This document shows positions 5,476 through 14,557 of a stretch of 64,000 nucleotides of DNA, piece by piece (position 1 is the first letter of the stretch; each line of letters opens with the position of its first letter). Made by a program: the position numbers and the translations under genes. This DNA is from Natranaerofaba carboxydovora (GTDB lineage Bacteria; Bacillota; Natranaerobiia; Natranaerobiales; Natranaerofabaceae): NCBI RefSeq assembly GCF_022539405.1, contig NZ_CP054394.1, forward strand, positions 126,501 to 190,500, in the 5' to 3' direction. Under the pieces are notes generated by a model that saw only the letters and a program-made list of their open reading frames with translations, was not told where the DNA came from and did no database searches.

Positions 5476-6882
5476 ATGAGGATTTTGCTAATTCAGCCGC
5501 GGCGTTTAGGAATTGGCTTTAGAAGTCTTATGCATATTGAACCTCTTGGACTTGAGATGTTGGCAGGAGCCTTGGAAGGTCATGAGCTAAAGATTCTAGA
5601 TTTCATGAGTCCTGAAGAAATAATTAGGGAAGCAATTACTTTCGAACCGGATATGTGTGGTATTTCGTGTTCATTTACTGTAGATTTAGAAAATGCCTTG
5701 AGTATTGCTAGAGGTATAAAGGAAAACTTGCCATCAACATTGATTTTTGTAGGTGGTCACCACGCAGCAACGAACCCTCAACATTTTAAAGATTTGTCTG
5801 TAGATGTGATAGCTTTGGGGGAGGGAGAAGAGATAGTTAAGGATTTAGCAGAATATCATGCTGAGGGTATAGATCTAAAAAAGGTTTCCGGGATAGTTTT
5901 GAATGAAGATGACGGAGACGGGATAAAGCAGCGTTATACAAGTTCTAGGCCCTTGATTTGGGATTTGGATAGACTTCCCCATCCACGAAGAGATCTTGTG
6001 TCAGCTTATAGAAAGAATTACTATTTAGGTTTAAGACGTCCTGTATATGCTCTAGAAACCGCACGCGGATGTCCTTATAAATGCAAATTTTGTAGTGTAT
6101 GGCATTTTTATCGAAGCAGTTACAGGATGAAAAGTGCAAAAAGAGTGTTTGAAGAAATTGTAGACATACCAGGGGATACTGTATTAATTACAGATGATAA
6201 TTTCTTTGCAAATATAGATCGTGCTTACAAAATTGGTGAACTTCTAAAAGAAGCAGGGGTGAAAAAATATTATAATGTTCAAGCTAGAAGCGATGACATA
6301 GTTTCTAATTTAGAACTAATTGATTTGTGGAGGGAAGTAGGCTTATCTTCTGTGTTTATTGGTTTTGAACAGATTGATCAAAAAGGATTAAATGATCTTA
6401 ACAAAAGAAATAGTATAAAAAACAATGAAAAAGCTCTATACGAGTTAAGAAAAAGAGGGATGGGGGTTACTTCATCCTTCATAGTTGATCCATCTTATGA
6501 TGAAAAAGATTTTGATGTAATGCTAAGCTATATAAAAGAAAAAGGAGTAAAAACACCATCTTATTCTATTTTAACTCCCCTACCAGGTACCGTCCTCTAT
6601 GAAGAAATGAAAGACAAAATAGTAACAGAAGACTGCCAGTTATATGATCTACTTCATGTTGTTTTACCAACTAAACTTCCCTTAGAAAAATTCTATAAAG
6701 AATTTGCCAAGCTGTGGAAAAAAACCTATATTGAAGGTGTGAAAAAACCGTGTGTTAGATCTGTAAAAGACGTGGCTTTTAATCCTGCTATGTGGTTTCA
6801 TTCACTAAGTTTACTAAAAGGCATGAACCGCTTCTTTAAAGCAGAAAATTATTTAAAATCCCATGAATACAGAAATATTTAA
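5476..6882 (+). CDS. cobalamin-binding radical SAM enzyme, copy A
   Basis: A 468-residue class B radical SAM protein. An N-terminal B12-binding Rossmann domain (about residues 1-140) precedes the radical SAM barrel with CPYKCKFC (C199, C203, C206). Such enzymes usually methylate unactivated carbons or rearrange rings using methylcobalamin. The EPLGLE and ETARGCPYKCKFCSVW segments resemble hopanoid C-3 methylases (HpnR), but no hopanoid gene is in the window, so the substrate is open. It is roughly 70% identical by eye to the protein at 26442 in the catalytic half. The gene is 104 bases from uppP. The ATG at 5476 follows a strong AGGAGG site. Confidence 0.85.
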   Translation: MRILLIQPRRLGIGFRSLMHIEPLGLEMLAGALEGHELKILDFMSPEEIIREAITFEPDMCGISCSFTVDLENALSIARGIKENLPSTLIFVGGHHAATNPQHFKDLSVDVIALGEGEEIVKDLAEYHAEGIDLKKVSGIVLNEDDGDGIKQRYTSSRPLIWDLDRLPHPRRDLVSAYRKNYYLGLRRPVYALETARGCPYKCKFCSVWHFYRSSYRMKSAKRVFEEIVDIPGDTVLITDDNFFANIDRAYKIGELLKEAGVKKYYNVQARSDDIVSNLELIDLWREVGLSSVFIGFEQIDQKGLNDLNKRNSIKNNEKALYELRKRGMGVTSSFIVDPSYDEKDFDVMLSYIKEKGVKTPSYSILTPLPGTVLYEEMKDKIVTEDCQLYDLLHVVLPTKLPLEKFYKEFAKLWKKTYIEGVKKPCVRSVKDVAFNPAMWFHSLSLLKGMNRFFKAENYLKSHEYRNI

Positions 6883-8244: not shown

Positions 8245-9348
8245 TTAGGCTGTTTTTCTTTTTCTTTTGATAAGATCTGTAAAAGCCTCAAGTCTTGTTA
8301 CAGTACCTGCTTCACCTGTCTGTTCATCAAATATCATTGACAAAACAGGAAGATTAAAGTCTTCGCTTACTATAGGGAAAACACTTTGAGCTGTAGTTTC
8401 TGGCATACAGGTAAAGGGGGCAACATGAATAATACCATCATAACCTTCGCCTGCGTATATCACTGCTTCTCCTATGGATTCTCTTCCGTGTCCACCGACA
8501 AAGTGTTTGATGTATGGTTTTGCTTTTTCTTCGATTTTCTTTTTCTTTTGTTTATATTTTTGCCTGCCAAGCGGATGAATGTTTTGGCTGACCCACTCAC
8601 TCAAATACACACTTCTTTTGACTTCACATCCCATTTCACCAAGTCTTTTCTCAATATCAAAATTAGCAAAAGATTCGAGAACCATGTATATTTCTCCAAC
8701 AATAGCTACTTGAACAGGATTCTTTGGTCTTGGGGCCAGGCTTAGATTGTCTATTCTGTGGTCAATTTCTTCTTTGACTTGATATATTTTATTTAAATCC
8801 TCTTCTTTATCAACCATTTTTACTATTTGATCTTTAATATTATCGCAACCATCTTTGTTTTTAGAACTTATAATTTCATATGGACGAGTCTTGCTTAATT
8901 TTTTGTCTAGGTAATCTAACACATGCATTTTTGCCCAGGCTTTTTGAAGCGCTGTTTTCGTGTTTTTTATAGAAGAGCCATTTTTTACTTTCCATATTTT
9001 TGATAGCATATCACTAATACTTACCACCGGAGGATCAATAATAACTGCATCAATATCATATCCTAGGTCATTAAGTATCTCTTTTTGGATGTGTCCGTAT
9101 AAACCAAATCGACAAGGGCCACCGCCACCCGCCATAAAAATTGTATCTGCTCCCTTCTCAGCTGCCTCAATAAAATTGCCAAGGGTTACTTTTAAAGGGA
9201 AACAGGCGAATTCAGGGGCATAGGTAGTACCTAGTTCTAGGGTTCTCTTTGTATTTTTTGGTGGCACAATAACTTCATGGCCCAAATTTTCAAACAGGGT
9301 TTTCCCCATGACAGATATATTGCCCATGTGTGGGAAAGCTATCTTCAT
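8245..9348 (-). CDS. 2-hydroxyacyl-CoA dehydratase-related protein
   Basis: A 367-residue protein of the HgdB/DUF2229-related group. Cysteines occur in APEFACFPLK, GGGGPCRFGLYG and PFTCMPETTA, placed as Fe-S ligands in the family. It ends with the DEQTGEAGTVTRLEAFTDL motif, which the upstream partner also has in similar form. Relatives form Fe-S subunits activated by a BadF/HgdC ATPase through low-potential electrons; no such ATPase is encoded in the window. The ATG overlaps the upstream stop by one base (TAATG), so the two are translationally coupled. The reaction is unknown. Confidence 0.75.
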   Translation of the reverse strand: MKIAFPHMGNISVMGKTLFENLGHEVIVPPKNTKRTLELGTTYAPEFACFPLKVTLGNFIEAAEKGADTIFMAGGGGPCRFGLYGHIQKEILNDLGYDIDAVIIDPPVVSISDMLSKIWKVKNGSSIKNTKTALQKAWAKMHVLDYLDKKLSKTRPYEIISSKNKDGCDNIKDQIVKMVDKEEDLNKIYQVKEEIDHRIDNLSLAPRPKNPVQVAIVGEIYMVLESFANFDIEKRLGEMGCEVKRSVYLSEWVSQNIHPLGRQKYKQKKKKIEEKAKPYIKHFVGGHGRESIGEAVIYAGEGYDGIIHVAPFTCMPETTAQSVFPIVSEDFNLPVLSMIFDEQTGEAGTVTRLEAFTDLIKRKRKTA

Positions 9349-10277
9349 TAGTTAGTAATCCTCCTTTCTAGAAGGTCCATAAATGCTTCTAGTCTTGTAA
9401 ACATACCAGCTTCCCCTGTATGTTCATCGAGGGTAAGGGTAAGATTAGGTATAGAACTTATTTGTTTTACTTTTCTTTCGATTAATTCACATACTATGGA
9501 ATCAGGCCCACAACCAAAAGTGATAACCTGCACAATTCCGTCTACAAATCCATTGTTTGCTAAGTAAAGAGCACTCCCAAACAATCTTCTGTTTAAGGTC
9601 CAGTATAACTTTTTGTCAATATGTTTGTTACCTTCATCGATATCTTTGTTACCTATCATATTAGAGGTGATTATATCATAACCTGCTCCTTCGATTTTCT
9701 TTTGTATGCCGATTCCTGTAATTTCGTCGTTAATTATATAATCGCGGCCGATAAGGGCGATCTTTTTGTTATCTTTATTTAACTTATCTTTTAGCTCTGC
9801 CTGTTGGTTTTTAATAGTTTGTTTATGTTTAAGGCTTGCTTTCAGAAATGCCTTGTAACATTTTATGTAAGGTATATTGAGTTGATTACCAACTTCTAGG
9901 GCAGCACTTTTCCAGGTTTCTTTGTTATTATAATTTATTGTAGGAACAATTAAAGGTGGAAGATCTGAAATATTTTGCTCAACTGTATCTGGCAGCCCCA
10001 TAAACCTTGGACACAAAAATTCTTTTTTATTTATACTAACCAACCTGGGTACAAATATATAGTCTACTTTGTCAGCTAATTCTAATACATGTCCGTAATA
10101 AAACTTAACTGGCAAACATGTTTCAGACAAAGCAAGCTTAGTCCCTTCATTTAGGACTTCTTTATTAGAAGGACCTGTAACCTTTACTTTAAAACCTAAT
10201 TCTTCAAAAAAAGTTACCCAACCATCATTAAACAAATGAAAAAATAAGCCTCTTGGTATTCCTATTACGGTATTAAT
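9348..10277 (-). CDS. acyl-CoA dehydratase activase-related protein (DUF2229)
   Basis: Partner of the downstream gene. It carries the family core EELGFKV, ETCLPVKFYYGH, FGCGPDSIVCELI and a C-terminal DEHTGEAG motif. From the first in-frame ATG (10235) it would lack the family's N-terminus, but the same frame upstream encodes VIGIPRGLFFHL, matching the usual IPRGL start. The best initiator there is ATT at 10277, nine bases after GGAGG at 10287-10291. An ATG at 10285 is in another frame and stops after six codons. Either an ATT start or a frameshift is implied. It diverges from cooS across 167 bases. Confidence 0.7.
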   Translation of the reverse strand: MNTVIGIPRGLFFHLFNDGWVTFFEELGFKVKVTGPSNKEVLNEGTKLALSETCLPVKFYYGHVLELADKVDYIFVPRLVSINKKEFLCPRFMGLPDTVEQNISDLPPLIVPTINYNNKETWKSAALEVGNQLNIPYIKCYKAFLKASLKHKQTIKNQQAELKDKLNKDNKKIALIGRDYIINDEITGIGIQKKIEGAGYDIITSNMIGNKDIDEGNKHIDKKLYWTLNRRLFGSALYLANNGFVDGIVQVITFGCGPDSIVCELIERKVKQISSIPNLTLTLDEHTGEAGMFTRLEAFMDLLERRITN

Positions 10278-10444: not shown

Positions 10445-12373
10445 ATGATAAAATCCAAAAATATGGTACATAGAAAAGATGGCAGAATTAGTGTCCATGA
10501 TTCTGTGCAGGAGATGTATGAGAAGCTTTCTAAGGAAGGTCTTACTAACACCTTTGATAGATTTGACCCTATGGAAAGGATAAGGTGTAATTACTGCAGG
10601 CAAGGTATAAGCTGTCAGTTATGTACGAATGGCCCCTGTAGAATTTCTGACAAAGCTGACGTGGAGCTAGGGGTTTGTGGAATTGACAGAAATGCTATGT
10701 CCATGAGAGATATGCTTCTTAGAAATGTGATGGGAGCTTCAACTTATGCTCACCATGCTTATGAAGCTTTTAGGACCTTGAAGTCAACTGCCAATGGGAA
10801 AACACCTTATGAGATAAAGGACACAGACAAACTATACAATCTGGCAGAAATCTTTGGCCTTAATACTTCAGGCTCAAAAGAAGATGTGGCTGTTAGATTG
10901 GCTGAATTTTTCATGGAAGAATTGCATCATGATTATGATAGACCAAGTGAAGTTGTAGAGAAATTTGCCCTAAGGTATAGGAAGATAAAGTGGAGAGATC
11001 TAGGTATTTATCCAGCAGGATTGATGCATGAGATAAAAGATGCTACAGCTAGCTGTTTGACAAATGTTGACGGGGATCATGTGTCTATGGCAAAGAAAGC
11101 TATGAGGCTTGGAATTGCTACTATATATGGGGCACAGCTTGGATTAGAGATGGTTCAGGATATAATGTTTGGAACTCCCATGCCTCATGAGGTTGACGTG
11201 GACTTTGGGATAATGGATCCTGATTACGTTAATCTAGTGTTTAATGGCCATGAACCCTGGATGGGTGCTGCAGCAATAAAAGCTGCCAAAGACCCAAAGA
11301 ATCAGCAAAAAGCTAAAGATGCAGGTGCCAAAGGAATAAGAGTTGTTGGTTCTATAGAAACTGGGCAGGAACTGCTTCAAAGATTTCCTATGGATGATGT
11401 TTTTGTAGGACATATTGGAAACTGGCTAGCCATTGAGCCCCTCCTTGCAACGGGTACTGTAGACGTATTTGCTATGGATGAGAACTGCTCTCCACCTGCT
11501 CTTAAACCTTATGCGGATAAATACCAGGTGACCCTTGTGGCAGTCTCTGATTTGGTTAGAATGCCCGGTGTGGAAAAGATATTAGATTATAAGCCTCCAG
11601 AAGTAGCCCAGATGGCCCAGCAGTTAATTGATTGGGGTATTGAAAATTTCCAAAAAAGAAAAGATACAGTGACTCCTCATGTTCCAAATAAAGTGACAAA
11701 GGCTACAGCAGGTTTTTCTAGTGAAGCTGTGTTAAATGTCCTTGGTGGATCAATTGATCCACTGCTAGATGTGATTAAAGAAGGTCACATAAAAGGAATT
11801 GTAGCTATAGTAAACTGTACGACCCTTTCGAACGGACCTCACGACTATATGACTGTTAATCTGGTTAAAGAGCTAATTAAAAAAGATATACTTGTAATTG
11901 CAGGTGGATGTGGATGTCATGGACTAGAAGTAGCAGGATTAACGAATACAGAGGCTATAAACCAGGCTGGTGAAGGGCTAAAAGCTGTCTGCAACAAACT
12001 TAATATACCTCCTGTCTTGCCCTTTGGAACATGTACAGATACCGGTAGGATTTCAATGCTTGTGACACATATAGCTGATGCTTTGGACGTTGATGTTTCT
12101 GATCTACCAATTGCTGTGAGTGCTCCTCAGTATTTAGAACAAAAGGCTACAATAGATGGAGTGTTTGCTCTAGCTTATGGGACATTAACACATCTATCTC
12201 CAACCCCTCAGGTCACTGGTGCACCTGACCTGGTAGAACTTCTCACTGATCAAGTAGAAGGACTTACAGGCGGAAAGATTATGCTTGGCGACGAACCTAC
12301 TGAAGCGGCCAAGAAGATAGCTTCGCATATTAATAGCAAACGGGAAAAACTTTTGGCTCCACAGGGAAGTTAG
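10445..12373 (+). CDS. cooS: atypical anaerobic CO dehydrogenase catalytic subunit (CooS family)
   Basis: A 642-residue CooS-type protein. C-cluster ligands His269, Cys348, Cys458, Cys489 and Cys530 and the acid-base Lys567 are recognisable. The position normally Cys in CTGNE is Glu305 in ETGQE. The N-terminal cluster region is also rearranged: C48/C51 form CNYC, C57, C60, C65 and C78 match the B-cluster, and the second D-cluster cysteine is Ser56. The scaffold is clear, but CO oxidation is doubtful. Carboxydothermus CODH-V, as I recall, is a divergent member whose active site resembles hybrid-cluster protein. No cooC, cooF or ACS gene is adjacent. The ATG follows AAGGAGGT. Confidence 0.85.
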   Translation: MIKSKNMVHRKDGRISVHDSVQEMYEKLSKEGLTNTFDRFDPMERIRCNYCRQGISCQLCTNGPCRISDKADVELGVCGIDRNAMSMRDMLLRNVMGASTYAHHAYEAFRTLKSTANGKTPYEIKDTDKLYNLAEIFGLNTSGSKEDVAVRLAEFFMEELHHDYDRPSEVVEKFALRYRKIKWRDLGIYPAGLMHEIKDATASCLTNVDGDHVSMAKKAMRLGIATIYGAQLGLEMVQDIMFGTPMPHEVDVDFGIMDPDYVNLVFNGHEPWMGAAAIKAAKDPKNQQKAKDAGAKGIRVVGSIETGQELLQRFPMDDVFVGHIGNWLAIEPLLATGTVDVFAMDENCSPPALKPYADKYQVTLVAVSDLVRMPGVEKILDYKPPEVAQMAQQLIDWGIENFQKRKDTVTPHVPNKVTKATAGFSSEAVLNVLGGSIDPLLDVIKEGHIKGIVAIVNCTTLSNGPHDYMTVNLVKELIKKDILVIAGGCGCHGLEVAGLTNTEAINQAGEGLKAVCNKLNIPPVLPFGTCTDTGRISMLVTHIADALDVDVSDLPIAVSAPQYLEQKATIDGVFALAYGTLTHLSPTPQVTGAPDLVELLTDQVEGLTGGKIMLGDEPTEAAKKIASHINSKREKLLAPQGS

Positions 12374-12437
12374 TTTCTCCGTGAGAAGTTAGCCTCAACA
12401 GATATTAGATAATTTTAATAGTAAGATAATAAACTTC

Positions 12438-12466
12438 AGCCCCCCTGTTGGGGGCTAAATTGTTTA
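12438..12466 (+). terminator. probable terminator after cooS
   Basis: AGCCCCC and GGGGGCT form a G/C-rich hairpin with a short loop. The downstream tract is only moderately T-rich (AAATTGTTTATTTT). Confidence 0.6.
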
Positions 12467-13128: not shown

Positions 13129-13183
13129 TATTTGGATTTTATGATAATTTTTAAGTAAGACATTGAAAGGGGATGAAAGGAAA

Positions 13184-14557
13184 TTGAAAATTACTCTAAT
13201 TGAGCCAAAGTCACCGGGAGTGCACGTGTACAGCAGGGTGATGTTACCCAGGTTAGGGCTTCCGTTGATTGGAACAATTTTAAGAGATTTGGGCCATGAT
13301 GTTAAGTTATTTGTAGAAGAGATTGAGCAGGTTGATATGGAAAGGGTCAAAGAATCAGATCTAATAGGCTTTTCGTCAACAACTTCCACTGCACCTAGAG
13401 CATATCGCTGGTGTGATGAGATTAAATCAATTAATCCTGAAATACCAATTGTTATTGGAGGAGCCCATGTAAGTTTTTTGGTAGAAGAGGCATTAGAACA
13501 TGCTGATTACTGTGTTATGGGAGAAGGTGAGGCTCCAATACAGCAGTTGGTTAAAGCGTTGGAAAATAATGAAAAACCAGTTGATATTCCAGGGCTTGCG
13601 TATAAAGATGAAAAAGGTGAAATACATAAGCCAGATAGAGCAGCCTTTGCTGAAGTTAATAACTTTCCCCATCCTGATCTGAATTTAATAGAAGGCAGCG
13701 AGAAGATGAGTATTAAGCCTGTGATTGGTTCAAGGGGATGTCCTTATGGATGTAATTTTTGTTCGGTGATCCAGATGTTTGGTCGAAAATACAGGTTCTG
13801 TGATATTGATGGTGTGATAGATCAATTAGAAAATACCTCGGCAAGGCATGTATTTTTCTACGATGATAATTTTGCAGCTAATGTAGAGAGAACCAAGGAA
13901 ATGCTTAGGGAAATGATTAGAAGACAGATTAAAGTTAGCTGGTCTGCTCAGGTTAGGGTTGATATAGCTAAGGATCCGGAGCTTTTGGATTTAATGAGAG
14001 ATGCGGGCGCTAGCATGGTTTATATAGGTTTTGAAAGTGTCAACCCGGAAACATTAAAAGAATACAAGAAAGGCCTAGAAATTGAACAAACGATAGAAGG
14101 TATTAAAGCAATTAGAGAAAGAGGTATTATGATTCACGGAATGTTTGTAATAGGTGGAGATAATGATGACATAAATAGCCCTAAGAAAACTGTAGACTTT
14201 GCCTTGGAGCATAAGATAGACACTATTCAGTTATTGACGTTAACTCCACTGCCTGGGACACCCTTTTTCGAACAATTAAAAGAACAGAACAGATTAATAA
14301 ACACCGACTGGGAGTATTATGATGGACATCATGTGGTTCATATGCCAGCCAAAATGACCCCTTATGAACTACAGGTTCAGCTTATGAAGCAGATGGCCAG
14401 GTTTTATTCACTTAAGCGCTGTATGCAGGTGGCATGTCGTTTGAACTTGATAAGATTATTTTTTAGGTTTTATGGATTCAGGACTGTAAAAAGATGGATA
14501 TCTGATAAAACCAGCCAGGACTATGTTCAGTATTTGAAGGAGAGTTATTCTACTTAA
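13184..14557 (+). CDS. cobalamin-binding radical SAM enzyme, type 2
   Basis: A class B radical SAM protein of about 457 residues. The N-terminal B12-binding domain runs from KITLIEPKSPGVHV to about residue 140 and includes the GGAHVSF segment. The barrel carries SRGCPYGCNFCSV with the CxxxCxxC cluster motif. A helical C-terminal part follows. It is clearly distinct from the two HpnR-like copies at 5476 and 26442. The frame opens at a TTG at 13163, but the TTG at 13184 gives the usual family N-terminus and follows AAAGG. The substrate is unknown; methylation or ring closure of a lipid or cofactor would fit the class. Confidence 0.8.
   Translation: MKITLIEPKSPGVHVYSRVMLPRLGLPLIGTILRDLGHDVKLFVEEIEQVDMERVKESDLIGFSSTTSTAPRAYRWCDEIKSINPEIPIVIGGAHVSFLVEEALEHADYCVMGEGEAPIQQLVKALENNEKPVDIPGLAYKDEKGEIHKPDRAAFAEVNNFPHPDLNLIEGSEKMSIKPVIGSRGCPYGCNFCSVIQMFGRKYRFCDIDGVIDQLENTSARHVFFYDDNFAANVERTKEMLREMIRRQIKVSWSAQVRVDIAKDPELLDLMRDAGASMVYIGFESVNPETLKEYKKGLEIEQTIEGIKAIRERGIMIHGMFVIGGDNDDINSPKKTVDFALEHKIDTIQLLTLTPLPGTPFFEQLKEQNRLINTDWEYYDGHHVVHMPAKMTPYELQVQLMKQMARFYSLKRCMQVACRLNLIRLFFRFYGFRTVKRWISDKTSQDYVQYLKESYST

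Follow-up and report, generated by a model that had tools for sequence, protein, structure and literature searches.

The window, a 64,000-nucleotide stretch of the Natranaerofaba carboxydovora genome, encodes a protein that is very probably an orthologue of CooS-V, with a hybrid cluster and without the capacity to oxidise CO. Its best match in the PDB is entry 7B7Q, the CooS-V (CODH-V) of Carboxydothermus hydrogenoformans (CooS-V_Ch; entries 7B7T, 7B95, 7B97 and 7B9A are of the same protein), at 903 bits; the next matches, all named carbon monoxide dehydrogenases (CODHs), reach at most 382 bits. The two proteins are about 62% identical over 624 residues, have identical hybrid-cluster, B-cluster and D-cluster residues, show Tyr at the acid-base position and belong to the same clade. 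They differ within motifs (ETGQE in the window protein vs ESGQE in CooS-V_Ch; DENC vs DMNC), and the window gene is from another organism and another gene neighbourhood. A first-pass annotation had proposed a CODH-V-like, HCP-like cluster, and both the degree of identity and the conservation of every ligand (PMC9311411) support this. The interpretation was essentially right, yet it is already published for the type member: the group was described by Inoue et al. (2019) and the chemistry of CooS-V_Ch in 2022. The modest new details are the single clade of Glu proteins and their want of conserved gene partners, the distribution of the type and a ligand-poor orthologue.

The gene starts with ATG, just 3′ of a ribosome-binding site, aaggaggt. 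In profile searches the protein scores 480 bits with Prismane (PF03063) and 818 bits with the CODH catalytic subunit model TIGR01702 (cut-off 478), but only 43.6 bits with TIGR01703, the hydroxylamine reductase (HCP) family model, whose cut-off is 360.8. The central residue is Glu305, found in GSIETGQE (Table 1). It aligns exactly, without a gap, with the Cys that serves as ligand in the canonical G-x-C-C-T-G-N-E (CCTGNE) motif, and in the alignment to CODHs no other Cys occupies the site. Replacement of the CTGNE cysteine, as read from the sequence in the first pass, is thus borne out by the GAA codon and the alignment, and His269, Cys348, Cys458, Cys489 and Cys530 are all present as claimed. 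The comparison that had been proposed as a check, an alignment to the CODH clades and CODH-V, places Glu305 on the ligand Cys with every CooS-V ligand conserved; another cysteine filling the site, which had been named as the result that would overturn the idea, was looked for and none does. Functional Ni,Fe-CODHs have five Cys and one His as ligands, together with an acid-base His + Lys pair. In the window protein the Cys295 equivalent is Glu305 and the His is Tyr101, and Lys567 is kept. Two relevant residues, Glu565 and Tyr101, had been missed earlier. Glu305 is neither chance nor a sequencing error, as every one of the 49 Glu-clade proteins in the tree discussed below has Glu there.

Table 1. 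Positions of the CooS-V-type gene, its metal-ligand codons and related loci (window coordinates unless a locus or contig is given)
Feature	Position	Strand	Basis or remark
CooS-V-type (clade D, structural group D-1) hybrid-cluster protein gene, 642 aa	10445..12373	+	PDB match, TIGR01702, Prismane, alignment, tree
Type III D-cluster motif C48-N-Y-C51...S56; intersubunit [2Fe-2S] site in CooS-V_Ch	10586..10612	+	alignment; PMC6344411, PMC9311411
B-cluster Cys57, Cys60, Cys65, Cys78 ([4Fe-4S])	10613..10678	+	alignment
His269 codon (CooS-V_Ch His259)	11249..11251	+	alignment
Glu305 codon GAA (CooS-V_Ch Glu295, CODH-II Cys295); Fe ligand	11357..11359	+	alignment
Cys348 codon (CooS-V_Ch Cys338), Asn347 directly before	11486..11488	+	alignment
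Cys458 codon (CooS-V_Ch Cys449)	11816..11818	+	alignment
Cys489 codon (CooS-V_Ch Cys480)	11909..11911	+	alignment
Cys530 codon (CooS-V_Ch Cys521, persulfide gate)	12032..12034	+	alignment; PMC9311411
Glu565 codon in EQKA (CooS-V_Ch Glu556, HCP Glu494); second Glu ligand	12137..12139	+	alignment; PMC9311411
Terminator-like hairpin	12435..12459	none	3′ of the CooS-V-type gene
ACS-linked canonical CODH, own genome	L013:8045-10060 (G000:C1 about 3134045-3136060)		
Second canonical CODH region, own genome	L012:7826-13606 (G000:C1 about 1193825-1199605)		
Intact CooS-V orthologue L131	G142:C21:59441-61324	minus	alignment

The residues place the protein in structural group D-1 of the clade D Ni-CODHs as defined by Inoue et al. 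(2019; PMC6344411), whose complete row it matches: ligands H, E, C, C, C, C, the Tyr/Lys pair and a type III D-cluster. The D-cluster cysteines had been described as rearranged. CNYC and Ser56 are as stated, but the arrangement is not irregular; C48, C51 and C57 form the C-x2-C-x5-C pattern of the published type III motif (PMC6344411). D-1 loci are reported to have a HypA/HypB or COG1063 gene nearby (PMC6344411), whereas ORF and profile searches around the window gene revealed neither. Against the loss of CO oxidation stands genetic work with Methanosarcina acetivorans, cited by Inoue et al. (2019; PMC6344411), which suggested that group D-1 takes part in oxidising CO.

CooS-V_Ch is without Ni, and its cluster, described as a [4Fe-3S-nO] hybrid cluster, is [4Fe-3S] in the reduced and [4Fe-2S-S*-2O-2(H2O)] in the oxidised state; neither CO oxidation nor CO2 reduction was found (Jeoung, 2022; PMC9311411). 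Hydroxylamine is reduced slowly, with a kcat of 0.13 s-1 and a kcat/KM of 20 M-1 s-1, and NO reduction was not detected (PMC9311411). As the window protein has the same ligand set, the proposal that the window enzyme may not oxidise CO is well supported. The further proposal, reduction of a nitrogen or oxygen species, is weakly founded even for CooS-V_Ch, given these low hydroxylamine values and no detected NO reduction.

The relationship with HCP (prismane) calls for some care. HCP and the window protein belong to the same Pfam superfamily (PF03063) and have the His, four Cys and the EQKA Glu in common; HCP has no D-cluster, whereas the window protein does. The other Glu ligand of HCP, in THGE/THSE, aligns with Glu309 of ETGQE, four positions past Glu305, and the same offset between HCP and CODH-V was seen by Fujishiro and Takaoka (PMC10502027). 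The parallel drawn earlier between Glu305 and the HCP glutamate therefore holds in that both are hybrid-cluster ligands, but the two do not align: the resemblance is functional, not positional.

A 66-sequence tree groups all 49 Glu proteins, CooS-V_Ch and the window protein among them, in a single clade (SH-aLRT 99), and requires one Cys/Glu change. Cys-type clade D relatives (groups D-2 and D-3/D-4; L032-L035 and L135-L139) already have Glu565 and Asn347 but retain Cys at position 305, and L032 and L135-L139 have a type II D-cluster. Two views of the origin of the Glu have been published. Fujishiro and Takaoka (2023; PMC10502027) regard it as ancestral, in the order HCP to CODH-V to CODH; Jeoung (2022; PMC9311411) regards it as derived. 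The HCP-rooted tree nests the Glu type inside Cys lineages, but the AU test does not reject the alternative (p-AU 0.21, log-likelihood difference 6.3), and the HCP branch is 2.5 changes per site long. Glu565, Asn347 and Tyr101 (Asn in the D-2 type) are common to HCP, clade D and clade-C-like CODHs, and therefore look older than the Cys-to-Glu change.

One orthologue, L131, departs from the pattern. The gene is intact, but its product shows the hybrid-cluster changes C348S, C458G, C489S, C530S, E565D and N347G, while the B- and D-cluster cysteines are all retained, as are Glu305 and His269. L131 has downstream neighbours in common with L115, a normal copy from the same family; its branch, at 0.57 vs 0.11, is longer by a factor of five. 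The two differ by 0.20 nonsynonymous and 0.76 (saturated) synonymous changes per site, which indicates that selection has acted on L131 over much of its past. The ligand-poor form was seen in one genome only (G142). Of the same family, G091 and G012 were read residue by residue and have the normal ligands; homologues were also found in three of its other genomes (G118, G309 and G310).

The window gene stands alone. Divergent genes upstream and the hairpin downstream suggest a single-gene transcript, the hairpin being weak evidence by itself with three terminator-like sites found against 1.9 expected. The divergent genes, at window positions 8245-10235 on the minus strand, are two adjoining DUF2229 genes that resemble CoA-enzyme-activase/2-hydroxyglutaryl-CoA dehydratase; none of the other CooS-V genes examined has a homologue of this pair beside it. 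The region is flanked by two genes for B12-binding radical SAM proteins (5476-6882 and 13163-14557), and matches of both to the BchE, HpnR and HpnJ models fall far under the cut-offs. A comparison of 55 loci revealed no conserved neighbour or operon partner of the Glu-type genes. Of the five Cys-type loci of clade D that were examined, four (L135-L138) show a CooS-ferredoxin-FAD oxidoreductase arrangement, whereas the Glu type has no such arrangement. Gene solitude in clade D is already on record, with 64% lacking neighbours (PMC13056359). At another locus (L078:526-1794, minus strand, G237:C32) there is a 422-aa shortened CODH-like open reading frame with D/B-cluster-type cysteines and an adjoining ferredoxin-like gene. 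We take this possibly to be of the ‘mini-CooS’ type.

Homologues at 52% identity or more are found in 51 of 299 Bacillota genomes, as counted from the match list. In 15 genomes, 14 of these 51 and G028, a search for the whole family yields a single CooS above the cut-off, and it is of the Glu type. These genomes contradict the published statement that CooS-V-type enzymes occur only beside another CODH. Thirteen of the 15 are draft assemblies and the claim covers profile-detectable genes, but G156 and G306 are single contigs, so that in these two missing contigs cannot explain the sole CooS. Profile searches gave no ACS match in 14 of the 15, and no HCP over the cut-off in six. The Glu-type genes have no ferredoxin/FNOR partners and, in these 15 genomes, persist without another CooS and, with one exception, without ACS, which favours a hybrid-cluster protein that does not oxidise CO.

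The host of the window gene is differently equipped. Its genome, one 3.26 Mb contig searched by family profiles, has three other Prismane-family genes. Among them is a true HCP, which scores 773 bits with TIGR01703. A canonical CODH (L013) adjoins ACS and the ACS gamma and delta subunit genes; it has Arg (GASSRSEHG) at the position of the acid-base catalytic His of CODHs. A second canonical CODH (L012) adjoins NuoE-, NuoF-, HoxU/NuoG-like and ferredoxin-like genes, which suggests an NAD-linked CO dehydrogenase complex. With two canonical CODHs, one of them beside ACS, the CO chemistry of the host is covered by other enzymes.

The cluster, its gating, the missing CO chemistry and the slow hydroxylamine reduction are properties of CooS-V_Ch that the window protein probably shares. 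It would then be a homodimer of CODH fold with a redox-switching Fe/S/O hybrid cluster in place of the Ni,Fe C-cluster. The entry point for electrons would be the intersubunit [2Fe-2S] D-cluster, bound by Cys48/Cys51 from each of the two subunits, and from there they would pass by way of the B-cluster (Cys57/60/65/78) to a hybrid cluster held by His269, Glu305, Cys348, Cys458, Cys489, Cys530 and Glu565. Oxidation would turn the sulfur of Cys530 into a persulfide and shut the substrate channel; reduction would return the persulfide sulfur to the cluster and open the channel, so that substrate meets only the reduced state. Such a protein would be a low-potential reductase acting on some small oxidised molecule, not a CO oxidiser. 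The reductase reading leans mainly on the channel gating, since the only activity known in the family is slow hydroxylamine reduction, with no NO turnover.

This raises the question of whether turnover is the function at all. The protein might instead be a redox sensor or regulatory protein whose output is the reversible cluster rearrangement. The very slow turnover of CooS-V_Ch and the closing of its channel on oxidation (PMC9311411) fit such a role; clade D has been suggested to serve in regulation (PMC13056359), and a Crp/Fnr-like gene, named from its sequence, lies near seven of the 55 clade D loci, five of the seven being of the Glu type. However, a sensor is unlikely, as the 55 loci have no conserved partner gene, and nine consensus operators searched in 48 upstream regions showed no excess over shuffles, and hence no shared operator site above chance (CRP/HcpR, FNR, CooA, Rex, PerR, Fur and NsrR). 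Nor would a pure sensor obviously need the B and D electron-transfer clusters, which are conserved, and the 15 sole-CooS genomes do not bear out the proposed link with a functional CODH. Alternatively, the protein might duplicate HCP in the detoxification of NO or hydroxylamine. The clusters are alike, Glu565 and its EQKA motif are common to both, and the six sole-CooS genomes that have no HCP look as if the two proteins could replace each other. This too is rather improbable, as HCP is kept beside the CooS-V type in the other nine and in the window's own genome. Finally, it is hardly credible that the protein is still a working Ni,Fe-CODH with Glu305 standing in for the Cys ligand of the unique iron: the TIGR01702 match, five of six C-cluster ligands and Lys567 speak for it, but CooS-V_Ch with the same ligand set has neither Ni nor CO activity, the CODH-II variant C295E loses Ni and no longer oxidises CO (PMC9311411), Tyr stands in place of the acid-base His, and the full CCTGNE motif is already found in two other CODHs of the host, one adjoining ACS.

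What is established for the window protein itself is its sequence, conserved ligands, clade and solitary gene. A stress-related, CO-independent reductase is the best guess at its physiological role, one about as apt to prove right as wrong. Standard annotation names the gene a CO dehydrogenase, which is very probably wrong, and the gene should be left out when CO metabolism is predicted. Genomes with CooS-V as their sole CooS provide clean hosts for deletion tests of its function. Tentatively, the CooS-V type may represent a class of stand-alone reductases with a low-potential substrate of their own, unrelated to CO metabolism, and retained by anaerobes without CODH or ACS, some of which are without HCP as well; the window copy would be one of these, maintained beside a full CO-fixing system.
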